Source: Paracoccus sp. TOH
Lineage (GTDB): Bacteria; Pseudomonadota; Alphaproteobacteria; Rhodobacterales; Rhodobacteraceae
Direction of reading: 5' to 3'
DNA: 64,000 nt
NCBI RefSeq assembly: GCF_030388245.1
Contig: NZ_CP098364.1
Span: 62,001 to 126,000, forward strand
In this document: positions 3,008 to 37,542 of the stretch, piece by piece
Layout of the letters: the number at the start of each line of letters is the position of its first letter
Numbering within the stretch: the first letter of the stretch is position 1
The notes under the pieces: generated by a model
The model's database searches: none
Told to the model about the DNA's origin: nothing
What the model saw: only the letters and a program-made list of their open reading frames with translations
Made by a program: the position numbers and the translations under genes

Positions 3008-4156
3008 TTGACCGAAACAGATTTCCCCCGGCGCGAGCGGATCACCCTGTCGGCGTGCTTTCTGGCCGGCGGCCTCGGCATCGGCGGCTGGGGCGCCAAC
3101 CTGCCGGCGCTGGGGCGGCGGGCGGGGCTGGACGAGGGCGCGCTGGGGTTGGTTCTGCTGTCCTTTGCCGCCGGCGCCATCCTGGCGATGACCAACGCGC
3201 CGGCGGTGATCGCCCGCATCGGGGCCGAGCGGCTTTCGGTGATCGCGGCCGGGTTGTTCGGGCTGGGCATCGTCGGCATCGGCTGGGTGACGCAGATGGC
3301 CGCGGCGATGGTGCTGGCAAGCCTTGCCGGGCTGGTCTTCGGGGCGCTGGATGTGGCGATGAACAGCCAGGCATCCAGCCTTGAACGCCGCGCCAGGCGG
3401 CCGGTCATGTCCTCGTTTCACGCCATGTTCAGCGCCGGCACGCTGATCGGTGCGCTGGCCTATGCGGCGCTGGCGCAGGGCGGCGTCGGGAACGGCGCCA
3501 TCCTGTCGCTGTCGGGCGGCGTGATCCTGGTGATCGCGGCGGCGATGTTTCCCCGCACCACCGCCGCCCCGGCCGGGCCGGCAGAAGCCGCCCCGAGCGC
3601 CAGAAGCCGGGCCAGGCCGGGCGCGGCGGCGCTGGCGCTGGGCGCGCTGGCCTTCGTGATCTTCCTGGCGGAGGGCGCGATCATGGACTGGGCGGCCGTC
3701 TATCTGGTGCGGGTGATCGGCACCTCGGAAAGCATCGGCGCGGCCGGATATGCGATCTTTGCGGGCATGATGCTGGTGGGCCGGCTGCTGGGGGACCGGG
3801 CCAACCGTGCCCTGGGGCCGCCGCGCTTGTTCCGGATCTCGGTGATCGCGGTGGCGGTCTCCATGGCGGCGTTCCTGCTGTCGGGCTCGGTCGATCTGGC
3901 CTTTGCGGCGCTTGCCTGCAGCGGGCTGGCGATGGCGAATGTCATCCCGCTGATCTTCTCGGCCGCGGGCGCGCTGGGGGCCCGGGACGGCGGGCGTTCG
4001 CTGTCCCGGGTGATCTCGATGGGCTATGCCGGGATCCTGCTGGGCCCGGCGCTGATCGGCTTCCTGGCCCAGGCGGTTTCCCTGACGGCGAGCCTTGCGC
4101 TGGTTCTGGCGGGTCTCGTGGCGGTGGCGTTCTTCGGCCGCGCGCTGGAGGGTTAG
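3008..4156 (+). CDS. MFS transporter (YbjJ/FucP-like)
   Basis: A 382-residue integral membrane protein with about 12 hydrophobic segments. It starts just after a short charged N-terminus (TDFPRRERITLS) and has a central charged or proline-rich loop (about residues 190-210). The GGLGIGGWGANLPALGRRAGLDEGALG region resembles the first helices of YbjJ-like major facilitator proteins. I chose the TTG at 3008 because AAGGGGG lies 7 nt upstream and it gives family length. An ATG at 2984 would add eight residues with no good ribosome site. It converges with the GntR gene (21-bp gap). Substrate unknown; sugar or sugar-acid transport would fit the neighbourhood. Confidence 0.75.
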   Translation: MTETDFPRRERITLSACFLAGGLGIGGWGANLPALGRRAGLDEGALGLVLLSFAAGAILAMTNAPAVIARIGAERLSVIAAGLFGLGIVGIGWVTQMAAAMVLASLAGLVFGALDVAMNSQASSLERRARRPVMSSFHAMFSAGTLIGALAYAALAQGGVGNGAILSLSGGVILVIAAAMFPRTTAAPAGPAEAAPSARSRARPGAAALALGALAFVIFLAEGAIMDWAAVYLVRVIGTSESIGAAGYAIFAGMMLVGRLLGDRANRALGPPRLFRISVIAVAVSMAAFLLSGSVDLAFAALACSGLAMANVIPLIFSAAGALGARDGGRSLSRVISMGYAGILLGPALIGFLAQAVSLTASLALVLAGLVAVAFFGRALEG

Positions 4157-4177
4157 GGCCCCCCGGTCCCGGGCGGA

Positions 4178-4909
4178 TCACTGCGCCGCATTCGCATGGC
4201 GGTAAAGCGGGTTCGAGCGGTCCAGATGCGCCTGCATCGCCGCCACCGCGCCGTCGGCATCGCGGGCGGCGATCAGGTCCACGATCTGGTCGTGTTCCTG
4301 CAGCGTGACCTTTTCCTTGCCCGACCAGTGCAGCAAGACGCCGTGATATTGCAGCAGCCAGCGCAGCATCGCCTGGCTGGTCGCGACCAGGATCGGATTC
4401 GCCGAGATCTGCGCGATCCGGCTGTGAAAGGCCATGTCGGCGGTCACGAAAGCCTCGGCATCGCCGATGCGGGCGCGCTGCTCGCCCACCAGTTCGCGCA
4501 GGTCGCGCACGTCCTGCGCGGTGGCGTTTTCCGCCGCCACCCGCACCAGCCCGCATTCGAACATGCGCCGCGCCTGCTTCAGATGCTCAAGCTGCTCGGG
4601 TTCCGAGGACAGCAGCATCCGCGCCACGTCGTCGACGCGCGCCAGCACGCTGCCGGCCGAAAGCTCGTTCACGCGGCTGCGTTCGCCATGGCTGATGGTG
4701 ATCAGGCCCATGGTGTGCATGTGCTGCAGCGCCTCGCGCACGGCGGGGCGGCCGACGCCGAAGCGCTCCATCAGGTCGCGTTCGGACGGCATGGGGGCGC
4801 CGGGGGGCAGTTCGCCGCCGGCGATCATCTCGCGCAGCCGGTCGAAGACCTGGTCGGACAGCTTGCGACGGGTGATCCGGTCGGGGCTGGCAAGCTGGTC
4901 GTGTTTCAT
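4178..4909 (-). CDS. FadR-type GntR transcriptional regulator (FCD domain), probable apiose-locus regulator
   Basis: A 243-residue protein. Residues about 15-75 form the GntR winged helix (KLSDQVFDRLREMIAGGELPPG, then PSERDLMERFGVGRPAVREAL). Residues about 90-225 form the all-helical FCD ligand domain with the spaced Asp/His pattern (FVTADMAFHSRIA, EHDQIVDLIAARD) that binds metal and small acids. It lies directly downstream of apnL on the same strand, so it may be the last gene of the catabolic transcript. Inference: it senses an acid intermediate such as apionate and binds the repeated AT-rich operators at 11989..12025 and near 12900. The ATG at 4909 has a weak AGGA very close by. Confidence 0.85.
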   Translation of the reverse strand: MKHDQLASPDRITRRKLSDQVFDRLREMIAGGELPPGAPMPSERDLMERFGVGRPAVREALQHMHTMGLITISHGERSRVNELSAGSVLARVDDVARMLLSSEPEQLEHLKQARRMFECGLVRVAAENATAQDVRDLRELVGEQRARIGDAEAFVTADMAFHSRIAQISANPILVATSQAMLRWLLQYHGVLLHWSGKEKVTLQEHDQIVDLIAARDADGAVAAMQAHLDRSNPLYRHANAAQ

Positions 4910-4937
4910 GGTCCTGGCTCTTGGCTGCGGTCTTTCG

Positions 4938-6674
4938 TCAAGATTTAGGCGAAGGCGGGCGGCTTTGCCAGCCGAAGGGCTCGGGACCGTCCGGCGTCAG
5001 GCGGGCGGTCAGCGTGACGCCGTCGAAGGCCAGCTCGGCCCGGCCGTCCGCCAGCGCGGCGCCGCGCAGGGGCTGGCCCGCCTGCGCCGCCAGGGCCTGC
5101 ACCACCGCCGCGACCGGGCGCAGCGCGCCATCCGCGCGCACCAGCCCGCGCGGGCCGTAAAGCGCGGCGGGCGTCCAGACCGTCACGCCCGCGGGCGCGA
5201 TGCTGGCCGCCAGTCCCAGGGTCCAGGCGGCGGCGAAGGCGCCGTCCTGGCGGGGGTCGTCATCGGCCATGCAGACCCGGTCGCGGCCGGGATTCGGGAT
5301 GGTGCGGCTGCCATAGGGGTTCTGCCGCATGGCAAGGGTGGACGGTCCCAGCCGATAGTCGCGGCCGCCGATGATGGCGCGGGCCGAGGCGAGGATATGC
5401 GGCACCGCCTCCAGCGTCTCGACCACCGACAGGTCGTCGGCGGCATGGACGATGGGGCACAGGCCGTGGGTCACGAAATCCCAGGCATCGGCGGGCGGGC
5501 GCTTGCGGTTGAGCTCGGGGAAAAAGCTCGCCATGCCGCCGCCCAGGGTCGTGCCCGGAAAGGCGGCACGGGCGGCGGCATGGACGCTTTCCAGCGGCGG
5601 GCAGGGCGGCCAGTCCGATCCCGGCGGCGTCGATTGCCGGTCGACCGAGGGGCAGGTCATGATGGAGGCGGGGCGGAACCCGGAGGCTGCCAGATCGGCG
5701 GCATAGCCGGCAAATTCCGCCGCCAGGTCGCCGTCGGGCGGGCAGGCGGCGATCAGTTCCAGGTCATAGGCCAGATCGGGCAGGGCGGCCTGCAGCGCCG
5801 CGAAGCCGCGCAGTTCGGACAACCCGTGGCCTGCGGCGATGTCCAGATGGCAGAGCAGGCGCTGGGGGCCGATGCGGCGCAGCGCCTCGGGACGGGCCGC
5901 GGCGCGGCGCGCGTCGGCGGCGGTCAGGACAAGCGCGGTTTGCGGGAACCGGGCGCCCGCCACCTCGGCCCGGATCGGCGGCGCGGCATCGGCGGCGGGG
6001 GCGGGGGTCCAGGAAATCCGCACCGCCTGGCGCAGCGTCTCGCCGTCGCGGATCGCATAGGGCCAGGGCAGGGCCAGCGGGCGGTTGTAGGTCTTGAAGG
6101 ACGCATCGCCCCATTGGCGCTGGTCCTCCATCTCGAAGACGTCGCCCTCGAACCGGCAGGCGATGCGCAATCCGCCCGCCTGATGGGTCAGCGAGGCGAT
6201 GTCCGTGAAGGGTTGCCAGGGCGCGATCAGCGCGGGAAAGCGCGTCTCCTCGGTGCTGCCGTCGGAATGGCCGACCCGGACCGGGGCGCCGGCCACGCCC
6301 TGGATGGGATGCAGCACGGTGAAGCCCGCGCGGTTGGTTTCCACGGTGCCGTGGGCCGTCGCCACCACCTCGGCGGTCAGGCTGTCCGGTGTCAGGCTCA
6401 GCGCGATCCGCGCAACGAGGCTGCCGCCGCCCATGTCATAGCGGGCGGCATAGCTGACACGCCCGCCGGCCATGGCCAGTTCGGTGATCGCCGGCGCGAC
6501 CGTGCCCCAGTCGCGGTCGCGGACCAGGAAGGACAGGCCGCGAATGGCCTCGACCCCGCCGACGCGCAGGTGGCGCAACCGCCCGGCCTCCAGCGTCACC
6601 GCGGCGTCGCCCGCGCGCAGCACCTCGCCCCGGTGCGGCGGCTTGTCGGTGCCGTAGAGCAGGGTCAGGTCCAT
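4938..6674 (-). CDS. apnL: Probable D-apionate lactonase
   Basis: A 578-residue soluble protein. I assign it as ApnL from its length and its place between a Gfo/Idh dehydrogenase and an FCD-GntR regulator in a locus that also holds ApnO-like, OiaK-like and RuBisCO-like proteins, the set described for oxidative D-apiose catabolism. ApnL opens D-apionolactone to D-apionate in the cytoplasm. The N-terminal half (LYGTDKPPHRGEVLRAGDAAVTLEAG) looks beta-rich and the middle contains an alpha/beta-barrel-like part. Catalytic residues are not obvious to me. It overlaps the apsD stop by 10 bp, indicating translational coupling. Sequence alone would only support an uncharacterised carbohydrate enzyme; the specific name depends on context. 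Confidence 0.7.
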   Translation of the reverse strand: MDLTLLYGTDKPPHRGEVLRAGDAAVTLEAGRLRHLRVGGVEAIRGLSFLVRDRDWGTVAPAITELAMAGGRVSYAARYDMGGGSLVARIALSLTPDSLTAEVVATAHGTVETNRAGFTVLHPIQGVAGAPVRVGHSDGSTEETRFPALIAPWQPFTDIASLTHQAGGLRIACRFEGDVFEMEDQRQWGDASFKTYNRPLALPWPYAIRDGETLRQAVRISWTPAPAADAAPPIRAEVAGARFPQTALVLTAADARRAAARPEALRRIGPQRLLCHLDIAAGHGLSELRGFAALQAALPDLAYDLELIAACPPDGDLAAEFAGYAADLAASGFRPASIMTCPSVDRQSTPPGSDWPPCPPLESVHAAARAAFPGTTLGGGMASFFPELNRKRPPADAWDFVTHGLCPIVHAADDLSVVETLEAVPHILASARAIIGGRDYRLGPSTLAMRQNPYGSRTIPNPGRDRVCMADDDPRQDGAFAAAWTLGLAASIAPAGVTVWTPAALYGPRGLVRADGALRPVAAVVQALAAQAGQPLRGAALADGRAELAFDGVTLTARLTPDGPEPFGWQSRPPSPKS

Positions 6675-7687
6675 TGCGGCGCCCGCATGTCGATGCGCGA
6701 GCGGTCCGCCGCCGACCGATAGGCGGCTTCCACCAAGGCCAGCGTCTTCAGGTTGTCATGCCCCGAGGTTTCCGGCTGCACCCCCGCCCGCAGGCAATCG
6801 ACGAAATGCTGCTGGATGATCTGCACGCTTTCCTGGATGTTGTGCCAGGGCCGTTCCGCCCAGGGCAGGACCGGGGGCGCCACATCGCGGACCTCCTCGG
6901 CCTTCGTCTGGATCAGCAGCCGATAGCCGGCATCCAGCCGCAGCGTGCCCGTGTCGCCGTCGATCTCCAGCAGCGTTTCCGGGAAGGTCTCGGGCATCCG
7001 CCGGGTGGCATAGGAGCAATCGACGACGCTGGTCGCGCCGCTCTCATGCTCCAGCAGCATGGTCGCCACGTCCTCGCCGCGGATGGCCGGGTTCATCCGC
7101 CGCGTGGTGGCCGAAAGCGTCGCCACGTCGCCGAACAGGGCGCGGGCCACGTCCAGGATATGGATGCCCAGATCCTGGATGATGAAGCGCGGATCGGTCG
7201 CCAGATAGGGCTGGCCCGAGAACACGTCATAGCCCGACCGGAAGCTGACGCGGCCGAAGAACGGCGTGCCGATGGCGCCGGCCCGCACGGCGCCGATGGC
7301 GGCGCGGACGGCCGATTGCCAGCGGAAATTCTCGTGCACCATCAGGATCTTTCCCGCCGCATCGACGGCGGCGACCATGGCGCGGGCATCCGCCATCGTC
7401 TCGGCGAAAGGCTTCTGGCAGATGACATGCAGTCCCGCCCGGGCGGCCAGGTCCACCAGGGACCGGTGCGCGGCGACGGTGGTGGCGATATCCACGAAAT
7501 CCAGCGCTTCCGCCGCCAGCATCGCGGCGGCATCGGCATAGGGGCGGGCGCCGAAGCGGGCCGCGGTCTGCTCGCGCCGGGCGGGGTCGCGGTCGCAGAC
7601 GGCCACGATCCGGACGCCCTCGATCCCGGCCCAGCCATGCATCTGGTTCTGCGCGAAGAACCCGCAGCCGATCAAGGCACCCTTCAT
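6665..7687 (-). CDS. apsD: Gfo/Idh/MocA oxidoreductase, probable D-apiose dehydrogenase
   Basis: A 340-residue NAD(P)-dependent sugar dehydrogenase. The N-terminus has the Rossmann motif (MKGALIGCGFFAQNQ, then VAVCDRDPARR). The family lysine motif appears as CQKPFAETMADA. The C-terminal alpha/beta domain carries the GxDLGIHxLD-type segment (IIQDLGIHILDVA) with the catalytic-site His. The predicted reaction is oxidation of D-apiose (apiofuranose) to D-apionolactone, the first catabolic step. The ATG at 7687 begins the Rossmann strand directly; the longer upstream frame runs into the permease gene. It starts 1 bp after the permease stop and is followed by apnL in the same operon. Confidence 0.78.
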   Translation of the reverse strand: MKGALIGCGFFAQNQMHGWAGIEGVRIVAVCDRDPARREQTAARFGARPYADAAAMLAAEALDFVDIATTVAAHRSLVDLAARAGLHVICQKPFAETMADARAMVAAVDAAGKILMVHENFRWQSAVRAAIGAVRAGAIGTPFFGRVSFRSGYDVFSGQPYLATDPRFIIQDLGIHILDVARALFGDVATLSATTRRMNPAIRGEDVATMLLEHESGATSVVDCSYATRRMPETFPETLLEIDGDTGTLRLDAGYRLLIQTKAEEVRDVAPPVLPWAERPWHNIQESVQIIQQHFVDCLRAGVQPETSGHDNLKTLALVEAAYRSAADRSRIDMRAPQWT

Positions 7688-7688
7688 G

Positions 7689-8747
7689 TCACTTCCCCGC
7701 CTCGGCCTGCAGCGCCACCCGCGCCTGCAGCTTCTGTTGTGCCTGATCGACCACGACGGCGGCGATGATGACAAGCCCCTTGATGACCGTCTGCCAGAAG
7801 GACGACACCCCCATCATCACCAGCCCGTCCGACAGGACGCCGATCACGAAGGCGCCGACGATGGTGCCGCCGATCCGCCCGCGCCCGCCCGACATCGAGG
7901 TGCCGCCCAGCACCGCCGCGGCGATGGCGTTCAGCTCGAAGGCCTGGCCGGTGGCGGGATGCGAGGCGACCAGTTGCGACGAGATGATCAGGCCGACGAT
8001 CGCCGCGCAAAGCCCGCTGAACATGTAGACGAAGAACTTGATGCGGTTGACCCTGACCCCCGACAGCGCCGCGCCGCGCTCGTTGCCGCCGACCGCATAG
8101 ACATAGCGGCCCAAGGGCGTGCGCCGCGCGATATAGGCGGCGATCACCGCCACCGCGATCAGCATCCAGATCGAGACCGGCAGCCCCAGGACGGTCCCCG
8201 CGCCGATCAGCCGGAAGCTGTCCGAGCCGTATTCGGCATTGCCGTTCAGGTTCGGAAAGGTCCGCCCGTCGGAAAACAGCATCGCCGCGCCCCGGCAGAC
8301 ATAAAGCGTGCCCAGCGTGGCGATGAAGGGCGCCACGTTCAGCCTGGTGATCAGGAAGGCGTTCACCGCGCCGATCAGCACGCCGACCGCCATCACGATC
8401 AGGCAGATCTCGATGGTGTTGAACTGGATCGACCAGCCAAGGCCGGGGTCGATGCCGTAAAGCACCAGCCAGCCCGCGACCATGCCGCACAGCCCGACGA
8501 TGGAGCCGACCGACAGGTCGATCCCGCCCGAGATGATGACGAAGGTCATGCCGATCGCCAGGAAGGCGTTCAGCGCGACATGCTTCGACATGATGACCAT
8601 GTTCGCGGTGGACAGGAAGTTCGGCGCGGCAAAGGCGAAGAAGGCGAAGACCAGGATCAGGGCGATGAAGGTCCGGGCCTTCAGCAGCAGAAGCAGCAGG
8701 CTGGCGGACCCCGCTTGCGGCGCGGTGTCGGTGGCGGCATGGGTCAT
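7689..8747 (-). CDS. Ribose-type sugar ABC transporter permease (probable D-apiose importer)
   Basis: A 352-residue inner-membrane permease of the RbsC/AraH family with about ten hydrophobic segments. Characteristic stretches are AIGMTFVIISGGIDLSVGS, IATLGTLYVCRGAA and VLGGTSMSGGRGRIGGTI. The last is the cytoplasmic coupling region that contacts the ATPase. The start overlaps the ATPase stop (ATGA). It belongs to the operon sbp, DUF2291 lipoprotein, ATPase, permease, apsD, apnL. Family membership is certain; D-apiose as substrate is inferred from the downstream enzymes. Confidence 0.93.
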   Translation of the reverse strand: MTHAATDTAPQAGSASLLLLLLKARTFIALILVFAFFAFAAPNFLSTANMVIMSKHVALNAFLAIGMTFVIISGGIDLSVGSIVGLCGMVAGWLVLYGIDPGLGWSIQFNTIEICLIVMAVGVLIGAVNAFLITRLNVAPFIATLGTLYVCRGAAMLFSDGRTFPNLNGNAEYGSDSFRLIGAGTVLGLPVSIWMLIAVAVIAAYIARRTPLGRYVYAVGGNERGAALSGVRVNRIKFFVYMFSGLCAAIVGLIISSQLVASHPATGQAFELNAIAAAVLGGTSMSGGRGRIGGTIVGAFVIGVLSDGLVMMGVSSFWQTVIKGLVIIAAVVVDQAQQKLQARVALQAEAGK

Positions 8748-10282
8748 GCGGCATGCTCCTTGGATGGGGTGGGCGCGTGGCCCTTGGCCGAGGCGGCGAT
8801 GACAAGGGTTTCGGTGGCGTCCTTGCGGTCGAATTCGCCGGTGACGCGGCCGTTCGACATGACCACGATGCGGTCGGACAGCGCCATCAGCTCCTCGATG
8901 TCCGAGGTGACGAAGACGATGCCCAGCCCCTCGGCCGCCAGCTTGCGCATGGTGCGGAAGACCTCGGCCTTGGCGCCGATGTCGATGCCGCGCGACGGCT
9001 CGTCCATCAGCAGCACCTTGGGTTTGGTCATCAGCGCCTTGCCGATCACCACCTTCTGCTGGTTGCCGCCCGACAGGCTGGAGACCGGGTTTTCCATCGA
9101 GGCGATCTTGACCGTCAGGCGACGCACGAAATCGCGCACCGTGCCGCGTTCGGCGGCCAGGTCCATGTGGAAGCCGGTGGTGAATTCGCCCAGCGACGAC
9201 AGCGTCATGTTCTCGCGGATCGACAGGATCTGCACCAACCCGTCGTTCTTGCGATCCTCGGGGATCAGGGCGATGCCCGACCGGATGCGGCCGGCGACGG
9301 TTTTCGCCTTCAGCGGCTTGCCGTCCACGCAGATGCGCCCGCCGGCATGGGGGTGGCGGCCGATCACGCATTCCAGGAACTCGCTGCGGCCGGCGCCCAT
9401 CAGGCCATAGACGCCCAGGATCTCGCCGGCGCGCAGGCTCATGCCGACATGGTCCACCGCCATGCCGCCGCCGGGGCGGGGCAGGGTCACCTCCTCGGCC
9501 CGGAAGATCTCGGGCCCATAGGGGTGGTCGATGTCCTTGGCGAAATCCCTGGACGCCTCGCCGATCATGGCGCGGACGATCCAGTCCACATCGACGCCCT
9601 GCATCGACCGCGCCCCGGTGATCGTGCCGTCGCGCAACACGGTGATGTAGTCGCCGATGCGGATCAGCTCCTCCAGCCGGTGCGAGATATAGACGATGCC
9701 GACGCCCTGCTTCTTCAGGTCGGCAATGACGCGGAACAGGATCTCGACCTCGGCGGCGGAAAGCGCCGAGGTCGGCTCGTCCAGGATCAGGATGCGGGCA
9801 TCCTGGGCCAGGCTTTTTGCGATCTCGATGATCTGCTGCTGGCCGACGCGCAGGTCGCCGACCATCGCGTCGGGGTCGATGTCATGTTCCAGCCGCCGCA
9901 TCAGGGCGCGCGTGGCCTGGCGCTGCGCGGCCCTGTCGATGTCGATGCGGCCGCGGGTGATCTCGCGGTTGATGAAGATGTTTTCCGCGACCGTCATGTT
10001 CGGGAACAGGTTCAGTTCCTGGAACACGATGCCGATGCCGTGGCGGCGGGCATCGTCGGTATCGCTGAAATGCACGGGCTTTCCGTCCATCAGGATCCGG
10101 CCCTCGGTCAATTGCTCGACCCCGGCGATGACCTTCATCATCGTGGACTTGCCGGCACCGTTTTCGCCCACCAGCACGTTGACGGCGCCCATGCGCAGGT
10201 CGAAATCGACGCCCTTCAGCGCCCGGGTGCCGGGATAGACCTTGGTGCCGCCGCGGATCTGCAGGCCGATGCCATGCGTCAT
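8744..10282 (-). CDS. Ribose-type sugar ABC transporter ATPase, two fused nucleotide-binding domains
   Basis: A 512-residue RbsA/XylG-type protein of standard length. The first ABC domain has Walker A GENGAGKST near residue 40, a signature region (LRVGQQQIIEIAKSL) and Walker B ILILDEPTSAL. The second domain has a degenerate P-loop (GLMGAGRSEF), LSGGNQQKV and LLMDEPSRGID, the usual asymmetry in this family. It energises import with the adjacent permease. The ATG at 10282 overlaps the lipoprotein stop (ATGA), and its own stop overlaps the permease start. Confidence 0.95.
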   Translation of the reverse strand: MTHGIGLQIRGGTKVYPGTRALKGVDFDLRMGAVNVLVGENGAGKSTMMKVIAGVEQLTEGRILMDGKPVHFSDTDDARRHGIGIVFQELNLFPNMTVAENIFINREITRGRIDIDRAAQRQATRALMRRLEHDIDPDAMVGDLRVGQQQIIEIAKSLAQDARILILDEPTSALSAAEVEILFRVIADLKKQGVGIVYISHRLEELIRIGDYITVLRDGTITGARSMQGVDVDWIVRAMIGEASRDFAKDIDHPYGPEIFRAEEVTLPRPGGGMAVDHVGMSLRAGEILGVYGLMGAGRSEFLECVIGRHPHAGGRICVDGKPLKAKTVAGRIRSGIALIPEDRKNDGLVQILSIRENMTLSSLGEFTTGFHMDLAAERGTVRDFVRRLTVKIASMENPVSSLSGGNQQKVVIGKALMTKPKVLLMDEPSRGIDIGAKAEVFRTMRKLAAEGLGIVFVTSDIEELMALSDRIVVMSNGRVTGEFDRKDATETLVIAASAKGHAPTPSKEHAA

Positions 10283-10920
10283 GGCGCGGCTACCAGGACG
10301 GTCGGCACCACCAGCAGGGGGTCCGAGGCGCTGCGCAGGGTGGTCGCGCCCTCGAAGCGGAAGCTCTGGCCGGTCAGGTCGCCCTCGGGCAGTTGGATTG
10401 CCTGATGGGCGCGGTCGTTCAACGCGCGGGCTAGCTTCGCGAATTCGATCTGGTCGCGGTAGTCGGTGAAGACGATGAAGTCCGCGGCATCGCGCAGCGC
10501 GGTGCCCTTGACGACCGGGCCAAGCTGGATGGTCACGTCGGCCTGCCCGTCGCCGGTCGTGTCCAGCGCCATGGTGGCGGCGCGGGACTGGCGATCGGCC
10601 CCGACCACGGTGCCCTGGCCCTTGACCAGGAAGTTCCAGGGACTGCCCTCGGCCTGCGGGCGGATGCCATGCGCCCGGCCCGCGGCGTCGAGCCCGCCTT
10701 GCAGGGCGGCAGTCAGCACGGGCAGGTCGATGGCCTTCCGGGCGACATGGGGGACCAGTTGCGCGGCATAGATCTCGCCTGCCTTGGCGGCCATGCGCGC
10801 GTCGTCGGTCTGGGCCGCGGCGCCTTGGCTGCCGGGTTCGGGATTGGGGACGATCTTGCAGGCGCCAAGCGCCGTCATGGCCAGAGACAGGCCAAGGATC
10901 GCGGTCATCGCGCGCATCAT
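10279..10920 (-). CDS. DUF2291-family periplasmic lipoprotein of a sugar ABC operon
   Basis: A 213-residue protein with a lipoprotein signal: hydrophobic segment, then LGAC with the lipid-anchored Cys at about residue 21. The mature part contains WNFLVKGQGTVVGADRQSRAATMALDTTGDGQADVTIQLGPVVKGTALRDA-type sequence, which I recognise as DUF2291, a lipoprotein commonly encoded inside ribose-like ABC operons with an unproven accessory role in uptake. It sits between the solute-binding protein and the ATPase, overlapping the ATPase start by 4 bp. An intergenic hairpin separates it from the binding-protein gene. Confidence 0.8.
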   Translation of the reverse strand: MMRAMTAILGLSLAMTALGACKIVPNPEPGSQGAAAQTDDARMAAKAGEIYAAQLVPHVARKAIDLPVLTAALQGGLDAAGRAHGIRPQAEGSPWNFLVKGQGTVVGADRQSRAATMALDTTGDGQADVTIQLGPVVKGTALRDAADFIVFTDYRDQIEFAKLARALNDRAHQAIQLPEGDLTGQSFRFEGATTLRSASDPLLVVPTVLVAAP

Positions 10921-10947
10921 GCGGGACTCCGGGTCTATCGGGGATGC

Positions 10948-10971
10948 GGCCCGGCGGCCATGCGCCGGGCC
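10948..10971 (-). terminator. Intergenic hairpin after the solute-binding-protein gene
   Basis: A perfect 9-bp GC stem (GGCCCGGCG paired with CGCCGGGCC) closes a 6-nt loop between the binding-protein stop and the lipoprotein start. There is no T-run, so it is more likely a 3'-end stabiliser or partial attenuator that raises binding-protein mRNA over the rest of the operon than a full terminator. Confidence 0.5.
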
Positions 10972-10980
10972 GGTGGTGGA

Positions 10981-11973
<993 letters not shown>

Positions 11974-11988
11974 TCAAGCTGCTGGCGA

Positions 11989-12025
11989 ATCATTATCTTG
12001 TCAACAGGTATGATAAGATAATGAT
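11989..12025. promoter_or_regulatory. AT-rich inverted repeat upstream of the importer operon (candidate GntR operator)
   Basis: Two 15-bp arms (ATCATTATCTTGTCA and TGATAAGATAATGAT) pair with one mismatch around a 7-bp spacer, between the apnO stop and the binding-protein start. The half TGATAAGATAAT recurs as TGATGAGATAAT at about 12903..12914 in the apnO/oiaK divergent region. An AT-rich island in such GC-rich DNA, repeated at both promoters of one pathway, is the expected mark of the pathway regulator, probably the FCD-GntR protein at 4178..4909. Confidence 0.65.
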
Positions 12026-12028
12026 CCC

Positions 12029-12859
12029 TTAGGTAATCCGCTCGATGCTGGCGGCGACCTCGTCCCATTCCAGCACCTTCTTCCAGTCGTCGCGCATCAG
12101 CATGGGCTTGCCGAATTCGATCGCCTTGTTGCAGGCGTCCGAGAACTGGCCCTGGCGTTCCTCGAAGATCACCGCGCCCAGGATGTTCATGTGGCCCAGC
12201 AGGAAGTCGCGGGCGCATTCCTTGCTGACGCCGCTGCGCGCCACGACCTCGTCCATCGCCTCGCGCATGACCATCAGCAGCGAGGCGCAGACGGTTTCCG
12301 ACAGGCCCGGTTCCAGCATGGCCATCTGTTTGACGGTGACTTCATAGCTGCGGGCGACGGGGGCATAGATGGCGCGGGCGATGCGGTCGCCCAGCTCGTA
12401 ATGCGCGCGCGGGCCCTGCATCAGCGCGTTGACCACGCCCTGCTTGGCGGCGACGCCGCCGAAATGGTCGGCCCGGCCTTCCGGCGTGTCCTCGTCATTG
12501 AAGATCGGCGGGTGGCAGGGATGGCTGACGAAATAGGTCACGTCGGCGCGTTCCGGCAGGTGGCCCGCGAAAGGCGCGGCGGCGTCCAGCACCACGATCA
12601 TCGTGCCCGGCGCCACCTGCGGCACCACCGCCGCCGCGACCTTGCGGATCACCGTGTCGGGCACCGCCAGGATCACCACCTCGGCGCCCGAGAGCGCGGC
12701 GGCGGAATCCACGCAGTCAAGGCCCAGTTCCGCCTTCAGCCGAACGCGGCCCTCTGCGCTGACCTCGACATGGGCCACGTCGAAATCGGTCCTGGCAAGG
12801 TTCGTGGACAGGCGCACGCCCATCTTTCCACCTGCCCCGAACAAGGCAACTTTCGTCAT
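12029..12859 (-). CDS. apnO: Probable D-apionate oxidoisomerase
   Basis: A 276-residue protein with an N-terminal NAD(P) Rossmann domain (TKVALFGAGGKMGVRLSTNL, then VVILAVPDTVIRKVAAAVVPQ) and a C-terminal helical domain resembling 6-phosphogluconate-dehydrogenase-like enzymes (VARSYEVTVKQMAMLEPGLSETVCASL). In the oxidative apiose pathway ApnO converts D-apionate to 3-oxo-isoapionate by coupled isomerisation and oxidation. The ATG at 12859 starts the Rossmann strand; the longer frame extends into the divergent promoter. It is divergent from oiaK, and its promoter region shares the repeated AT-rich site. Confidence 0.75.
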   Translation of the reverse strand: MTKVALFGAGGKMGVRLSTNLARTDFDVAHVEVSAEGRVRLKAELGLDCVDSAAALSGAEVVILAVPDTVIRKVAAAVVPQVAPGTMIVVLDAAAPFAGHLPERADVTYFVSHPCHPPIFNDEDTPEGRADHFGGVAAKQGVVNALMQGPRAHYELGDRIARAIYAPVARSYEVTVKQMAMLEPGLSETVCASLLMVMREAMDEVVARSGVSKECARDFLLGHMNILGAVIFEERQGQFSDACNKAIEFGKPMLMRDDWKKVLEWDEVAASIERIT

Positions 12860-12884
12860 TCCGGTTTCCCCTCTTGCAGGAATC

Positions 12885-12918
12885 ATCCTTGCCAAACTGG
12901 TATGATGAGATAATAACA
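12885..12918. promoter_or_regulatory. Second copy of the apiose-locus operator, apnO/oiaK divergent promoter
   Basis: The sequence CTGGTATGATGAGATAATAA lies between the divergent apnO and oiaK starts. It matches the right half of the 11989..12025 site (AGGTATGATAAGATAAT) at all but a few positions; the left half (ATCATCCTTGCCA) is a weaker match. Its position would let one regulator control both flanking genes. Confidence 0.6.
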
Positions 12919-12945
12919 AAGAAAGGCTGTCAAGGGGAGGATTCG

Positions 12946-14295
12946 ATGACCGAGGCGCCGTGGGTGACATGGCTGGGCGACGACTTCACCGGATCGGCGG
13001 CGGTGATGGAGGTGCTGGAATTCGCCGGCCTGCCCGCGGTCCTGTTCACCGGCATCCCGTCGCCCGGCCTGGCCGCGCGCTTTGCGGATTGCCGGGGCGT
13101 GGGCATCGCCACCACCGCGCGCAGCCACGACCCGGCCTGGATGGCGCAGAGCCTGCCGGCGCCGCTTCGCTGGCTTGACGGGCTGAAGGCGCCGATCCTG
13201 CATTACAAGATCTGCTCGACCTTCGATTCCTCGGCCTTGTCGGGGTCGATCGGTGCGGCGATCGAGATCGGCTTGCGCATCCGCCCGGCCAGGGCGGTGC
13301 CGCTGCTGACCGCGGCCCCGCAGATGCGCCGCTATCAGGCCTTCGGGCATCTGTTCGCGGGCACGCTGGACGGCGTGTTCCGGCTGGACCGCCATCCGGT
13401 CATGTCCCGCCATCCGGTGACGCCGATGGCCGAATCCGACCTGCTGCGGCATCTGGCGGCGCAGACCGGGCTGCGCTCGGCGCTGATCGACCTGGAGGGC
13501 CTGGCCGATCCGCAGGCCGTGGAAACCGCCCTGGCCTCGGGCGCCCGCATCCTGTCCCTCGACAGCATGGGGCCGGTCAGCGAAACCGCCGCCGGGCGGC
13601 TGATCTGGGAGAACCGCGCCGCTCTGGGTTTCGTCGCCGGCAGCCAGGGCGTCGAATATGCGCTGGTCCGGCATTGGCAGGCCAGCGGCGCCATCCCGCG
13701 CGTGCGGGCCCCCGGAGCCCTGCCGCCTGCCGACCGGATCGTGGCGGTGTCGGGCTCGGTCTCGCCCATTACGGCGCGGCAACTGGGCTGGGCGGGGCGG
13801 AACGGATTCGCGCTGCTGCCCTTCGACGCCCGGGCCGTGACCGGCGGCGATGCCGACCGGACGGCCGAGGAAACGCGCCTGACCCAGGCCGCCATCGCCG
13901 CCGCGCAGGCCGGCCAAAGCCCGCTGGTCCATTCCGCATCCGGCGAAGGCCCGCAGGTCGACGCCTTTCGCGATGCGCTTTCGCGCAGCGGCATGGACCC
14001 GGCCGCCGCCAACCGCCGCATCGGCGAATCGCTGGGCCGCATCCTGGACGCGACGCTGCGCGCCACCGGCATCCGCCGCGCGGTGATCTCGGGCGGCGAT
14101 ACTTCGGGGCACGGGATGCGGCAGCTTGGCCTGTCGGCGCTTGTCGCCCGCGCGCCGACCATTCCCGGCGCGGCGCTGTGTCAGGCCTTCGGCGACGGCC
14201 CGCATGACGGGTTGGAGATCGCCCTGAAGGGCGGGCAGATGGGGTCCGAGGATTATTTCGGCTGGATCCGCGCCGGCGGCGACAGGAGAGAGTGA
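12946..14295 (+). CDS. oiaK: Four-carbon acid sugar kinase family protein, probable 3-oxo-isoapionate kinase
   Basis: A 449-residue protein of the former DUF1537 family. The N-terminal domain begins WVTWLGDDFTGSAAVMEVL, with the conserved DDxTG substrate-site motif. The C-terminal domain has the nucleotide-site glycines in AVISGGDTSGHGMRQLG and near the end GLEIALKGGQMGSEDYF. It would phosphorylate 3-oxo-isoapionate at C4 with ATP. The ATG at 12946 has GGGGAGG 5 nt upstream. The stop codon lies 5 bp before the RuBisCO-like gene start, so the two are co-transcribed. Family assignment is firm; the exact substrate comes from the locus. Confidence 0.82.
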   Translation: MTEAPWVTWLGDDFTGSAAVMEVLEFAGLPAVLFTGIPSPGLAARFADCRGVGIATTARSHDPAWMAQSLPAPLRWLDGLKAPILHYKICSTFDSSALSGSIGAAIEIGLRIRPARAVPLLTAAPQMRRYQAFGHLFAGTLDGVFRLDRHPVMSRHPVTPMAESDLLRHLAAQTGLRSALIDLEGLADPQAVETALASGARILSLDSMGPVSETAAGRLIWENRAALGFVAGSQGVEYALVRHWQASGAIPRVRAPGALPPADRIVAVSGSVSPITARQLGWAGRNGFALLPFDARAVTGGDADRTAEETRLTQAAIAAAQAGQSPLVHSASGEGPQVDAFRDALSRSGMDPAAANRRIGESLGRILDATLRATGIRRAVISGGDTSGHGMRQLGLSALVARAPTIPGAALCQAFGDGPHDGLEIALKGGQMGSEDYFGWIRAGGDRRE

Positions 14296-14300
14296 GAGCC

Positions 14301-15554
14301 ATGACCGACCCTATCCGCGTCACCTATCGCATCGAGACGCCGGGCAGCATCGAGGCGATGGCCGCCAGGATTGCCGCCGACCAGTCCACCGGCACCTTCA
14401 CCGAGCTGCCGGGCGAGACCGAGGCGCTGAAAGCCCGTCATGCCGCCCGCGTCGAGCGGATCGTGCCGCTGCCCGACGCGGACCGCCCCGGCTTCCCGTC
14501 CGAGGCGCCCGGCCCGTTCCACCGCGCCGATGTGACGATCGCCTGGCCGCTGGACGCCGTCGGCACCGATATCGCCGCGCTGATGACCATCGCCGTGGGC
14601 GGGGTCTATGCCGCGCGCGGGCTGACCGGCGTGCGGGTGATGGATTTCGACCTGCCGCCCGCCTTTGCCTGCCATCCCGGCCCGCAATTCGGCATCGCCG
14701 GGTCGCGCCGGCTGATGGGCGTGGCCGAGGGGCCGATGATCGCCTCGATCATCAAGCCTTCGCTGGGCCTCTCGCCCGAGGATACCGCCCGGGTCGTCCG
14801 GACCCTGTGCGAGGCGGGCGTCGATTTCATCAAGGACGATGAAAAGCTGATGTCGCCCGGCTATTCGCCGCTGGCCGCCCGCGTCGAGGCGATCATGCCG
14901 GAGATCGAACGCCATGCCGACAGGACCGGCAAAAGGGTGATGTATGCCTTTGGCATCTCCTCGGCCGATCCGGACCAGATGATGCGCAACCACGACCATG
15001 TGGCGGCGTGGGGTGGCAATGCGGCGGTGGTCAATATCAACTCTGTCGGCCATGGTGGCATGGCCTTCCTGCGCAAGCGCTCGCAACTGTGCCTGCACGC
15101 GCATCGGAACGGCTGGGACATCCTGACCCGCCACCCGGCCCTGGGGATGGAATTCCGCGCCTATCAGAAGATCTGGCGCCTACTGGGCGTCGATCAGTTC
15201 CAGATCAACGGGATAGGCGCCAAATACTGGGAACCGGACGACAGTTTCGTGCGGTCCTTCGGCGACGTGATGACGCCGATCTTCTCCGAGGCCGACCGGC
15301 CGCTGCCGGTGGTCTGTTCCGGGCAATGGGGCGGGCAGGCGGTCGAGACCTATCAGCGCACGGGGCGCACGCTGGACCTGATGTATCTGGGCGGCGGCGG
15401 CATCCACGGCCATCCGAACGGCCCGGCGGCCGGCGTGCGGGCGATCCGGCGCGCCTGGGCGGCGGCGGCGGCGGGCGAGTCGCTGCAGGACGCCGCCCGC
15501 GACCATCCCGACCTGGCGGCGTCGCTGGCGAAATGGTCCGGGCAAGAGCTGTAG
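14301..15554 (+). CDS. RuBisCO-like protein, OiaX (decarboxylase) or OiaT (transcarboxylase/hydrolase) type
   Basis: A 417-residue RuBisCO large-chain family protein lacking the true CO2-fixing context. The active-site Lys152 is in IIKPSLGL (equivalent to Lys175 of RuBisCO). The carbamylated-lysine and metal motif is intact as Lys178-Asp-Asp180-Glu181 (FIKDDEK). Further motifs are INSVGHGGMAFL and LHAHRNGWD. It follows the kinase and should act on 3-oxo-isoapionate 4-phosphate. OiaX would release CO2 and give L-erythrulose 1-phosphate. OiaT would give 3-phosphoglycerate and glycolate. No erythrulose-phosphate isomerase is visible nearby, which mildly favours OiaT. The ATG at 14301 has AGGAGAG upstream; a GTG at 14292 overlaps the kinase stop. 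Confidence 0.85.
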   Translation: MTDPIRVTYRIETPGSIEAMAARIAADQSTGTFTELPGETEALKARHAARVERIVPLPDADRPGFPSEAPGPFHRADVTIAWPLDAVGTDIAALMTIAVGGVYAARGLTGVRVMDFDLPPAFACHPGPQFGIAGSRRLMGVAEGPMIASIIKPSLGLSPEDTARVVRTLCEAGVDFIKDDEKLMSPGYSPLAARVEAIMPEIERHADRTGKRVMYAFGISSADPDQMMRNHDHVAAWGGNAAVVNINSVGHGGMAFLRKRSQLCLHAHRNGWDILTRHPALGMEFRAYQKIWRLLGVDQFQINGIGAKYWEPDDSFVRSFGDVMTPIFSEADRPLPVVCSGQWGGQAVETYQRTGRTLDLMYLGGGGIHGHPNGPAAGVRAIRRAWAAAAAGESLQDAARDHPDLAASLAKWSGQEL

Positions 15555-15642
15555 GGCAGAAGGACGGCGGGCTTTCGTCGCCGCTGGCGCGTCGCTGCCC
15601 GGCTTGGAGCCGTTGCAGGCGCGGGAAGCCGCGCGGGATTTT

Positions 15643-15676
<34 letters not shown>

Positions 15677-15709
15677 CGGCCCGCTTCGGCCGGGTTGGGC
15701 TGAGGCGGG

Positions 15710-15726
15710 ACCGCCGGCCAAAGGCC
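15710..15726. terminator. Hairpin in the convergent RLP / TetR spacer
   Basis: GCCGGCC and GGCCGGC pair around an AAA loop, a perfect 7-bp GC stem between two converging genes. There is no T-run. Its position suggests a bidirectional 3'-end structure. Confidence 0.35.
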
Positions 15727-15798
15727 GGCCTGCCAGACCGCCAATGCCCGTCCGCAGCGGGCCGAGCCCGGCATCGCCGGTGCCGCGGCCCCGGGGCG

Positions 15799-16389
15799 TC
15801 ACTCGGCCCCGGCGCGGATGGCGGCGATCATGCGCTCGACCGCCGCATGCGCCAGGACCATGGGCTTTTGCCGGGTGATCAGGTCCAGCCGGTCGATGGC
15901 CGCCAGCGCCACGATGCCATGCACCGAAAGCAGCAGTTGTTCGGCCAGCAGGCGCGGGTCGCCCTTGGGCCGCAGCGCCGCCACCGGCTGGGTGATGCGG
16001 CCGATCAGCCCGTCGATCTGCGCCAGATACCAGTCGGGAAAACTGTTCGACAGGCGCGGCCCCTCGAACAGCGCGCGCCAGACCGCGCGGCGATCCAGCA
16101 TGAAGGTCACATAGACCTCGGCCAGCGCCAGCAGCCGCGCGCGCGGATCGGTCTCGTGCACCGCATCCACGGCAATGGCCAGATCGACCAGCGCCTGCCG
16201 GTTCACCTCCTGCAGCACGGCGCTCATGCTGTCGAACAGGTTGTAGATGGTGCCGGGGGTGGTCTTGACCGCGCTTGCCAGGGCGCGGGCGGTCAGCGCC
16301 GTCGGCCCGCCCTCCTCCAGAAGCAGCTTGGCCGCTTCGATCGTACGGCTGCGCAGGGCGTCATGATCGTATTGCCTGGGTCTGGCCAT
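15799..16389 (-). CDS. TetR/AcrR-family transcriptional regulator
   Basis: A 196-residue protein. Residues about 8-55 form the TetR helix-turn-helix (TIEAAKLLLEEGGPTALTARALASAVKTTPGTIYNLF); the rest is a helical ligand domain with AVWRALFEGPRLS. It is divergent from the FabH-like gene across 91 bp. That spacer contains two copies of a palindromic site, one only 9 bp upstream of its own start, so it probably represses itself and the neighbour. The ligand may be an acyl-CoA, given the partner, but this is a guess. Confidence 0.9.
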   Translation of the reverse strand: MARPRQYDHDALRSRTIEAAKLLLEEGGPTALTARALASAVKTTPGTIYNLFDSMSAVLQEVNRQALVDLAIAVDAVHETDPRARLLALAEVYVTFMLDRRAVWRALFEGPRLSNSFPDWYLAQIDGLIGRITQPVAALRPKGDPRLLAEQLLLSVHGIVALAAIDRLDLITRQKPMVLAHAAVERMIAAIRAGAE

Positions 16390-16480: not shown

Positions 16481-17467
16481 ATGCCTCAGATCAACCTCAC
16501 GATTACCGGGACCGGCAGTTACCTGCCCGCGACGGTCCTGCTTTCGACCGATATCGACGACCGCATGGGCTGGGAGCGGGGCGAATGCGAAGCCCGTTGC
16601 GGCATCGCCGCCCGCCATGTCGCCATGCCGGACGAGACGACCGCGTTCATGGGCGCCGAGGCGGCGCGGCGGGCGATGGAGATGGCGGGCTGCAAGCCGG
16701 CGGATCTGGACATGATCCTGGGCGCCTGCGGGGTGTCGGGCCAGCCGGGGCCCCCGACCGCGGCGCTGGTGCAGGAACGGCTGGGGCTGGCCGGGTCCGG
16801 CATTCCGGCCTTCGACGTGAATGCCACCTGCCTGGGCTTCCTGCAGGCGCTGGACCTTGCGGCGACGCATGTCCAATGCGGCCGGGTGCGGCGGGTTCTG
16901 GTGTTTTCCTCGGACACGGCCTCGGTCGGGCTGGACTGGAACCGGCCCGAGGCGGCGGCGATCTACGGCGACGGCGCCGCGGCGGTGGTGGTCGAGGCGG
17001 GGGGACGGGGCGCGGTGCTGGCGCATGATTTCCAGACCTATGCCCATGGCCATGAAACCGGCATGCGGGCGGCCGGAGACGCGCGGAACGATCCGATCCG
17101 CGGCATCGCGCCGGGCGAGGGCCGTTTCCACATGGAAGGATGCAAGGCCTTCAAGCTCGCCTCGCGCTACCTGCCGCGCTTTCTGCAAAGGCTGCTGAAA
17201 AAGGCCGATGTCGGGCTGAACGGCATCGGCTGCGTCATTCCGCATCAGGCCAGCGCGCAGGCCCTGCAGCACGCGACCCGCAACCTGTGGCTGCCACCCG
17301 AGCGGGTGGTGGACATCTTTTCTCGTGCCGGCAACCAGCTTGCCGCCTCGATCCCCACGGCGCTGGATCATGCGGTGCGCACCCGGCGGCTGGGGCGCGG
17401 GGACACCGCGCTGCTGATGGGGACTTCCGCCGGGATCTCGCTTGGCGGCACGCTGGTGCGGTTCTGA
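16481..17467 (+). CDS. 3-oxoacyl-ACP synthase III-like (FabH-type) thiolase-fold protein
   Basis: A 328-residue protein with the complete FabH catalytic triad: Cys117 in DVNATCLGFLQAL, His255 in PHQASAQAL and Asn285 in GNQLAASIPTAL. Housekeeping FabH usually has GNTSAASIP, so the divergent Asn loop and the lack of other fatty-acid genes suggest a specialised condensing enzyme, for example for a beta-keto acid, lactone signal or modified fatty acid. It is divergent from a TetR gene with paired operators, so it is probably inducible. Only GAAG lies before the ATG. It converges with hpbD, 34 bp apart. Confidence 0.8.
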   Translation: MPQINLTITGTGSYLPATVLLSTDIDDRMGWERGECEARCGIAARHVAMPDETTAFMGAEAARRAMEMAGCKPADLDMILGACGVSGQPGPPTAALVQERLGLAGSGIPAFDVNATCLGFLQALDLAATHVQCGRVRRVLVFSSDTASVGLDWNRPEAAAIYGDGAAAVVVEAGGRGAVLAHDFQTYAHGHETGMRAAGDARNDPIRGIAPGEGRFHMEGCKAFKLASRYLPRFLQRLLKKADVGLNGIGCVIPHQASAQALQHATRNLWLPPERVVDIFSRAGNQLAASIPTALDHAVRTRRLGRGDTALLMGTSAGISLGGTLVRF

Positions 17468-17501
17468 TGCGGGGCTGCAGCGTCTTTCTGAAGCGAACCC
17501 G

Positions 17502-18611
17502 CTAGGAATACGAGGCCACGGCCGGGCCGATGCGGCTTTCGTCGGGGACGATGCCAAGGCCCGGGCCCTTGGGCAGGTCGATATGGCCGCCCGTGATGCG
17601 GATGCCGTTCTCCTCGTCGTAATTCTGCGCGATATAGGGCTGGGCCACCCAGACGCCCTCGTTCAGCCGCGGCTGGATGGTGGCGCCGATATGGGTGCAG
17701 GCGGCGGCGATGATGTCGCCGCCCCAGGCATCGTCGCAGGTATGGGGCAGGGCGCGCGCCTCGCAGATGTCGCGGAACGTCGCCATGGCCGGCAAGCCGC
17801 CGATGCGGGTCAGCTTCATGCCGAACCCCTCGCAAAGCCCCTGGCCGGCGGCGCGGATCACCGTGGACAGGTCCTCGCCGTTCTCGTCCAGATAGATGCC
17901 GTGCTGCACCCGGCCCCGGATGGCGGCGATCTCCTCCAGCGTGTTGCAGGGCTGTTCCAGCACGAAGGGGATCTCGGGACATTCGCGGCTGAGCCGCAGC
18001 ACATCGCGGGTGGGCAGGCTGCGGTTGCCGTCCACCGCCAGCCGGGTGCCGGTGCCGCGGATGCGCTCCCAGACCTTGCGCACGGTTTCGATGTCGCGTT
18101 CGACCGGGCGGCCGCCGATCTTGATCTGCAGGCGCGGAAAGCCCTCGGCCACCTTCTCGGCGGCGATGCGGGCGATCTCGTCCGGCTCGCCGATGCCGGT
18201 GGCGTAATAGGAGGGCACGCGCTCGGCCGCGACGCCGCCCAGCAGCTCGGCGACGCGGATGCCGTAATGCTTGCCCATCAGGTCATGGGCGGCGATGTCG
18301 ACGGCCGCCTTGGCGTAGTTGTGGCCGCAAAGCAGCCCGTCCATCCGGCGGCGCAGCAGCAGCGGTTGCAGCGGGTTCGCGCCGATCAGGCCCGGCGCCA
18401 TCTCGGCCAGCGCGGCGCGGGCGCCGGCCGCGTGGCTGGGCGCATAGGTCGGGCCGACCGGGCAGGTCTCGCCCCAGCCGACCAGACCGTTATCGGCGAC
18501 GATCTTGACCAGCGTGCTCGACAGCGACCAGACCGTCGAGCTGGCGATGGTATAGGGACCGTCTTTGACCGGCAGGTCTTGGGCGTGGATGTGGATTTCG
18601 GCGATCTTCAT
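17502..18611 (-). CDS. hpbD: Enolase-superfamily epimerase, probable 4-hydroxyproline betaine 2-epimerase
   Basis: A 369-residue member of the muconate-lactonizing subgroup of the enolase superfamily. The acid/base pair is visible as Lys164 (LQIKIGG) and Lys266 (GMKLTRIGG), matching in position the pair known for HpbD. Metal ligands are Asp194 (AVDGNR), Glu219 (VLEQP) and Asp242 (LDEN). HpbD interconverts trans- and cis-4-hydroxy-proline betaine, allowing use of the osmolyte as a carbon and nitrogen source. The Rieske oxygenase and LysR gene upstream are the partners expected in this locus. The start directly abuts the decayed reductase gene. Confidence 0.8.
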
Positions 18612-18629
18612 GGGCTGTCCCTGTCTTGT

Positions 18630-18885
18630 GATTGGCGATCGGCGTCACCGTCAGCGCGGTCGGCCGCGACGGCGAGGACGAGATCGCAGAGGTGCGATGC
18701 GCCGTCCCGCCGGGCCGGGGCAGCTCCAGCGTCAGGATCTGCCCCGGCTCATGGCTGAACAGCGCGCCGGACCGGCTGCGGAAGCAGAAGGTCTTCACAT
18801 CCGGCGCCTCCGGCAGGCACGAGGCGCATTCCAGCGCCTCGGCATCGGTCCGGAAGGCCAGCCGGGGCCTGGCAGGCGGGTTCAT
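18630..18885 (-). pseudogene. Truncated Rieske-system ferredoxin reductase (hpbC1-like remnant)
   Basis: Reading from the ATG at 18885, about 86 codons match the N-terminal FAD domain of a Rieske-partner reductase: LECASCLPEAPDVKTFCF, HEPGQILTLELP, then RTSAISSSPSRP, the flavin-binding RxYS/T-type motif. The match stops at about 18630. The frame continues as non-homologous sequence into hpbD (to 18490). About 270 residues (the NAD-binding half and 2Fe-2S domain) are missing, consistent with an internal deletion. The start is 2 bp from the Rieske stop, preserving the original operon order. The oxygenase would need another reductase in trans. Confidence 0.75.
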
Positions 18886-18887
18886 CG

Positions 18888-20213
<1,326 letters not shown>

Positions 20214-37483: not shown

Positions 37484-37501
37484 CGCGGACTCCGGATGAA
37501 A

Positions 37502-37528
37502 GGGGACGCGCCGGGACTGGCGCGCCCC
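37502..37528 (-). terminator. Intergenic hairpin after dctP
   Basis: GGGGaCGCGCC pairs with GGCGCGCCCC around a 6-nt loop, with one bulged A. It lies between the binding-protein stop and the next gene, in the same position as the hairpin after the apiose binding-protein gene. It probably protects the binding-protein mRNA end and lowers read-through. Confidence 0.5.
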
Positions 37529-37542
37529 GGGGGCGCGGCGGA

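Follow-up and report, generated by a model that had tools for sequence, protein, structure and literature searches.

A putative D-apiose utilisation locus on a probable plasmid of Paracoccus sp. TOH, with candidate enzymes for its last two steps in an erythritol-type operon on another contig

We analysed a window of 64,000 nucleotides from Paracoccus sp. TOH (assembly GCF_030388245.1), in which ten genes at 4178-15554 appear to form a locus for the uptake and oxidative-type breakdown of D-apiose. The window spans bases 62,001-126,000 of contig NZ_CP098364.1 (here C5; 162,909 bp), one of five contigs in a genome of 4.5 Mb, and all coordinates are window positions unless a contig is named. Open reading frame (ORF) lists and family searches place the genes of the block in two arms. 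The eight minus-strand genes begin with a GntR/FCD regulator of the NanR subfamily, the probable regulator of the locus (4178-4909; NCBIfam NF003011, 311 bits against a cut-off of 260; Pfam GntR and FCD), a D-apionolactonase-type protein of 578 aa, ApnL (4938-6674), and an ApsD-type D-apiose dehydrogenase of the Gfo/Idh/MocA family (6665-7687). Next come the permease (7689-8747; Pfam BPD_transp_2) and the ATPase (8744-10282; two ABC domains, Pfam ABC_tran in two stretches) of an ATP-binding cassette (ABC) importer, a predicted periplasmic lipoprotein of the DUF2291 family in the importer operon (10279-10920; Pfam PF10054, 168.6 bits), the periplasmic sugar-binding protein of the importer (10981-11922; PDB 5ibq/4ry0, 492 bits) and a D-apionate oxidoisomerase-type protein, ApnO, that resembles 6-phosphogluconate dehydrogenase (6PGDH) (12029-12859; Pfam PGDH_C PF16896, 229 bits; PDB 5t57, 429 bits). 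The plus-strand arm comprises an OiaK-type 3-oxo-isoapionate kinase of the DUF1537 family (12946-14295, 449 aa) and a RuBisCO-like protein assigned to OiaX, 3-oxo-isoapionate-4-phosphate decarboxylase (14292-15554), which passes its curated equivalog cut-off (NCBIfam NF042437, 777 against 700 bits).

The genes of the block mostly overlap or lie no more than 28 bp apart. Gaps of 60 bp and 106 bp flank the binding-protein gene, and apnO and oiaK are divergent, 86 bp apart. The divergent promoter region holds a conserved operator-like element, CTGGTATGATNAGATRATAA, at 12897-12916, and a second, related element at 11989-12025, between the binding-protein and apnO genes, contains GGTATGATAAGATAAT within a palindrome with arms of 15 nt. 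All ten ORFs are open and long, and most have a high GC content at third codon positions. Plasmids from Martelella, Salipiger and Rhizobium carry the same gene set in other arrangements, a recurrence that places the block far beyond chance. A first-pass annotation, made from the letters alone, had named these gene types in the interval, and long ORFs and family matches bear it out, although it omitted the DUF2291 lipoprotein gene. A promoter and terminator scan gave the same counts as in shuffled sequence.

C5 is probably a plasmid. It encodes a RepA/ParA-like partition protein at C5 positions 53,596-54,705, which scores 272 bits against a curated cut-off of 348. The same model also matches weakly in 14 of 14 control genomes, and because of these two results the assignment is only probable.

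The oxidative pathway for D-apiose was reportedly set out by Carter et al. in 2018 (Nat Chem Biol 14:696), and we take the locus on plasmid p42f of Rhizobium etli CFN 42 to be one of the loci in that study; the pathway and this kind of locus are already known. All ten gene types are shared with the R. etli locus, at 38-77% identity: 77% for the binding protein, 70% for the permease and ApnO, 67-68% for OiaX, 64% for the ATPase, 58% for the regulator, 47% for ApnL, 46% for OiaK and 38% for the DUF2291 protein. The R. etli locus also carries CTGGTATGAT, the first half of the operator-like element, upstream of apnO. The R. etli cluster differs from the window in that genes for a triose-phosphate isomerase (TIM)-type and an RpiB-type isomerase lie between those of OiaK and ApnO, and in that DhaK and DhaL genes adjoin it, whereas divergent apnO and oiaK genes are a feature of the window. 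Plasmids pMM593 of Martelella mediterranea and pTPRO1 of Salipiger profundus likewise carry the ten gene types, at 50-85% identity, but with a different gene order in which OiaK is not adjacent to OiaX. Within the genus, a plasmid of Paracoccus liaowanqingii (NZ_CP040761.1) shares the regulator, ApnL, ApsD, ApnO, OiaK and OiaX, at 59-85%, and has a tripartite ATP-independent periplasmic (TRAP) transporter in place of the ABC importer of the window.

Residues K155 and KDDE at 181-184 of OiaX are invariant in five aligned rows; residues of this type have a role in RuBisCO. The stretches DDFTG, HPVTPM, GGDTS and KGGQ of OiaK are invariant in six aligned rows. The Gfo/Idh/MocA dehydrogenase is nearest to the apiose-locus enzyme and its best solved relative is an Agrobacterium radiobacter oxidoreductase (PDB); an NCBIfam search of the window proteins returned no ApsD model. 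ApnO combines a 6PGDH-type C-terminal domain with orthology to the apiose-locus enzyme, and had no NCBIfam match above cut-off. For the lactonase-type protein, neither a Pfam domain nor a solved relative was found by sequence; we call it ApnL-like from its place in the locus and its 47% identity to the R. etli protein, and not from the NCBIfam model. On the same grounds, with 46% identity, we regard the kinase as OiaK-like. The best solved relative of the binding protein is RHE_PF00037 of R. etli, a name taken from the title of 4ry0. The ligand in 5ibq is, we assume, apiose; searches of structure titles, with 4ry0 among the rows listed and 5ibq not, did not confirm this. The accessible portion of PMC8112048 describes 5IBQ merely as a probable ribose transporter protein.

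These R. etli identities, the OiaX score and the solved relatives support the view of the first-pass annotation that this is a D-apiose locus. So does Rhodobacteraceae strain LCG007, a member of a marine genus, which carries the same five enzymes in one cluster and grows on D-apiose (PMC11747546, from the available part of the text); the likeness of its cluster to the window is one of named enzyme activities, as given in that part.

The gene content suggests the following route. The ABC importer would take up free apiose, ApsD would convert it to apionolactone and ApnL would open the lactone to D-apionate. ApnO would then oxidise D-apionate and shift its hydroxymethyl group to give 3-oxo-isoapionate, which OiaK would phosphorylate and OiaX decarboxylate. 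The chain encoded in the block would stop there. The product of OiaX is presumably L-erythrulose 1-phosphate. Two isomerases, LerI and DerI, convert this compound to erythrose 4-phosphate (PMC10733421, from the text available), which should enter the pentose phosphate pathway, and cells with the whole route could be expected to grow on apiose. The block has been called complete and self-contained, but it encodes neither a TIM-type nor an RpiB-type isomerase; these are found on contigs C1 and C3 only. The further statement that apiose is fully oxidised also goes too far, because OiaX, by its name, removes one carbon as CO2 and the remaining C4 phosphate needs LerI and DerI.

The genome encodes two TIMs, one on C1 and one on C3, and a single RpiB, on C3. 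On C3 (653,516 bp) the RpiB gene lies next to that of the second TIM (positions 37,351-38,558). Compared with the pair in the R. etli cluster, this TIM shows 74% identity and the RpiB 63%; the housekeeping TIM reaches only 34%. The C3 RpiB scores above the DerI cut-off (249 against 240 bits). Flanking the pair are genes for a transketolase, a DeoR regulator, a fructose-bisphosphatase, a fructose-bisphosphate aldolase, a sugar-binding regulator, an apurinic/apyrimidinic (AP) endonuclease-type barrel protein (EryC-like), a dehydrogenase resembling GlpD (EryB-like) and a kinase of the FGGY family that is 74% identical to an annotated erythritol kinase, EryA. Next come genes for a DUF2291 protein and for an ABC importer whose binding protein is 51% identical to that of the window. 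We read this gene group, from its content, as a probable erythritol operon whose isomerases may complete the apiose pathway.

We searched 113 genomes of the genus, counting OiaX and DerI above their NCBIfam cut-offs (700 and 240 bits). OiaX occurs in 23 genomes and DerI in 47. All 23 OiaX genomes have DerI, against 24 of the 90 others (Fisher p 3e-11); two genomes, G001 and G016, score 239 bits for DerI, and counting both brings the genus background to 26/90. DerI was seen beside OiaX in none of the 23: the two are on different contigs in 18 genomes and 183 kb to 1.67 Mb apart in five. The R. etli TIM and RpiB also had no match in 23 stretches (≤20 kb) from the 22 other OiaX genomes of the genus. 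In a survey of 395 genomes drawn from the family, 392 after removal of three same-genus rows, with DerI counted at E ≤ 1e-60, OiaX is present in 11, and DerI in 11/11 of these versus 25/381 others. It lies 7-9.5 kb from OiaX in three of the 11, so the linked arrangement does exist. Over both surveys, DerI accompanies OiaX in 34 of 34 genomes. Among genomes with only another RuBisCO-like type, DerI was found in 0/12 in the genus (above cut-off) and in 3/50 in the family (E ≤ 1e-60; background 22/331). DerI follows OiaX and not the other types, which supports both the decarboxylase type of the window protein and a need for DerI.

Shared ancestry was considered with a tree built from rpoB in all 113 genomes (one gene, quick search; the rows of G076 and G093 are partial), on which OiaX changes 14 times. 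Independent OiaX/DerI pairs mostly number six with the association, none against and five without difference. RuBisCO, the control trait, is present in 15/23 OiaX genomes and 37/90 others; its pairs mostly number two to four with and none or one against (median p 0.5), so that no comparable link is seen for it. The literature searched, as far as its available text goes, yielded no Paracoccus apiose locus and no co-occurrence of OiaX and DerI, and other papers may contain them.

We put the probability that the block is an oxidative-type D-apiose utilisation locus on a probable plasmid, with final steps via the C3 isomerases, at about 0.88. Several results weigh against this. ApnL misses its equivalog cut-off (NF049900, 672 against 750 bits over model positions 3-569 of 595); on the same model the Martelella ApnL scores 624, and that of R. 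etli passes with 1050. OiaK also falls short (NF042436, 442 against 700 bits, the best of three models matched), as does the R. etli locus OiaK, at 473. Among the 120 homologues listed for the binding protein, four are named by their source as erythritol transport system substrate-binding protein. The C3 TIM scores 439 on a curated model for triose-phosphate isomerase, above the cut-off of 293, and an NCBIfam search with it returned no LerI model, and for these reasons its LerI role is assigned by identity and place. The tree-corrected p is modest (median 0.031, range 0.016-0.125), and DerI exceeds the formal 240-bit cut-off in seven of the 11 OiaX genomes of the family, with the other four at 232.7-239.1. 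Several genus assemblies are drafts in which OiaX is close to a contig end, so that in these an adjacent DerI is not fully excluded.

The most serious alternative, which we nevertheless consider improbable, concerns the last enzyme. Were the RuBisCO-like protein OiaT, a transcarboxylase/hydrolase, no tetrulose-phosphate isomerases would be needed and the block would be complete. Both reactions of 3-oxo-isoapionate-4-phosphate, decarboxylation and transcarboxylation with hydrolysis, are described for RuBisCO-like proteins of the apiose pathway in A. radiobacter and Xanthobacter (PMC6302742, from the part available), and two genomes of the genus, G105 and G080, combine apiose-like loci holding a different RuBisCO-like protein with the absence of DerI above cut-off. 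The window protein, however, scores 777 bits on the OiaX model, as opposed to 371-433 for other full-length matches in the genus (428 for that of G080) and at most 469 in the family. It is about 67% identical to OiaX of R. etli, whose cluster holds TIM and RpiB, versus 48% to the G080 type, and DerI accompanies its type in the proportions given above. These identities cover the R. etli protein and the G080 type, and Xanthobacter autotrophicus was not named among the at least 80 loci in a scan for related loci. Of the two names offered for this gene in the first-pass annotation, OiaX and OiaT, we retain the former.

Slightly less credible still is the idea that the block serves another branched or C4 sugar or sugar acid, such as erythritol or tetronate, with an importer for erythritol or ribose. 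The kinase weakly matches a 3-oxo-tetronate kinase model (145 of 350 bits) and the NCBI annotation of the importer is D-ribose, to which the erythritol names noted above may be added. Yet the ApnL and OiaK models are the best for their proteins, albeit below cut-off, OiaX is above its own, and ApnO is 70% identical to its R. etli counterpart. The binding protein is 77% identical to its counterpart in the R. etli apiose locus but 51% identical to that of the C3 operon, so erythritol probably has its own importer. Least probable of all is a decayed or silent remnant acquired by a plasmid: the block does lie on a 163-kb contig, the closest rpoB relatives have no OiaX and one related locus, in G069, appears truncated, but all ten reading frames are open, the conserved stretches of the relatives are kept and so is the promoter element. 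A D-apiose locus that hands its C4 phosphate to enzymes encoded on C3 is the reading we prefer.

For the genus as a whole, we lean towards a broader model in which the apiose block passes from genome to genome as an obligate plug-in that lacks its last two enzymes. LerI and DerI of the erythritol module would be a sink for C4 phosphate shared by both sugars, and the importer would be interchangeable. D-apionate would be the food source for loci with TRAP transporters and for the locus that has neither ApsD nor ApnL. If so, the block would work only in cells already holding the erythritol module. Since the sink can be elsewhere in the genome, apiose enzymes and an importer side by side are not sufficient to predict growth on apiose. 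The presence of DerI may serve as a simple genomic sign that distinguishes OiaX from other RuBisCO-like types.

The operator-like element consists of CTGGTATGAT followed by NAGATRATAA. Thirty loci were scanned and 26 are considered here, three being left out because no ApnO match lies in the stretch (L041, L056, L057) and one because it is on the same plasmid as another (L011, as L047). CTGGTATGAT is present in 26/26, and the full 20-letter form in 19/26. Rows were picked by a 14-letter pattern with at most two mismatches; CTGGTA, which precedes this pattern and is outside it, occurs in all 26, and the second half is exact in 19. The element lies before oiaK, divergent from apnO, in 24 loci and just before apnO in two Rhizobium loci. 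The exact element had no match in 1.83 Mb of other loci, in stretches biased to coding DNA. At the related palindromic element before the importer genes, the pattern matches in four of 30 loci, the window included. E. coli NanR recognises GGTATA repeats, and the NanR-type regulator is a natural candidate for the protein that binds the conserved element, itself a candidate operator. It probably acts at the apnO/oiaK site and at the related site before the importer genes.

Horizontal spread of the locus is likely, judging from sequence comparison. The genomes nearest by rpoB (G020, G073, G075 and G058; 93.8-94.8% DNA identity) all lack OiaX. Identity to genome G029 is 93-95% for the permease, the ATPase, the binding protein and ApnO, 90-91% for the regulator, the dehydrogenase and OiaX, and 82-86% for ApnL, OiaK and the DUF2291 protein; between the RpoB proteins of these genomes it is 92.5%. 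As a rule, RpoB is much better conserved than proteins of the kinds encoded in the locus, which points to transfer. The locus is on contigs of 3-4 Mb in G086, G062, G047 and one copy of G040, and a plasmid location is therefore not universal. A megablast search of plasmids with 3800-16200 as query matched 154 records; 12 of these had a best place with at least 95% identity, and none covered 80% of the query.

The importer varies across 24 loci of the genus. An ABC importer alone is present in 14, the window included, a TRAP transporter alone in five (G086, the G040 plasmid copy, G053, G066 and G047) and both in two (G035 and G098); in three, all cut or truncated, no importer was seen. TRAP systems usually carry acids, from which we would guess that TRAP-bearing loci take up D-apionate. 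The loci of G086 (L037), which has a TRAP transporter, and Marivivens sp. LCG002 (L012) encode ApnO, OiaK, NanR and OiaX, with no ApsD or ApnL in the stretch examined, and may use D-apionate and not apiose. In G069 (L041) OiaX is 90% identical, the OiaK match covers only 121 residues, and the 20-kb stretch has no match to ApnO, ApnL, ApsD or the binding protein; this locus is truncated or rearranged.

Other RuBisCO-like proteins and kinases were noted alongside. Those of G105 (L058) and G080 (L060) are 44-47% identical to the window protein in this comparison of loci, and the G080 protein has relatives in Ancylobacter and a Xanthobacteraceae strain among the matches listed; these two loci are candidates for the OiaT branch. 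A Paracoccus alcaliphilus plasmid (L034, 11998-14491) carries an operon of LacI, TRAP, a VOC protein, a RuBisCO-like protein and a DUF1537 kinase. No gene of the ApnO or ApnL type is annotated in its surroundings and the kinase has no NCBIfam match at E ≤ 1e-60; this is another RuBisCO-like pathway. In the TOH genome itself, C3:636109-637059, within a frame of 540 aa, gives a match of the RuBisCO type that scores 123 bits on the OiaX model and is probably a true RuBisCO.

Elsewhere in the window, an HpcH/HpaI aldolase is encoded at 203-952, and a B12-binding corrinoid-type protein at 2009-2758, between an ORF without Pfam match (981-1895) and a major facilitator superfamily gene. Adjoining the block, 16481-20207 encodes a protein like β-ketoacyl-acyl carrier protein synthase III, a mandelate-racemase-family enzyme and a Rieske oxygenase, genes that may, by resemblance, serve betaine catabolism. 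Finally, Ku (53821-55107) and a full LigD (56085-58637), with predicted ligase, primase-polymerase and phosphoesterase domains, constitute a putative end-joining repair pair on the probable plasmid.

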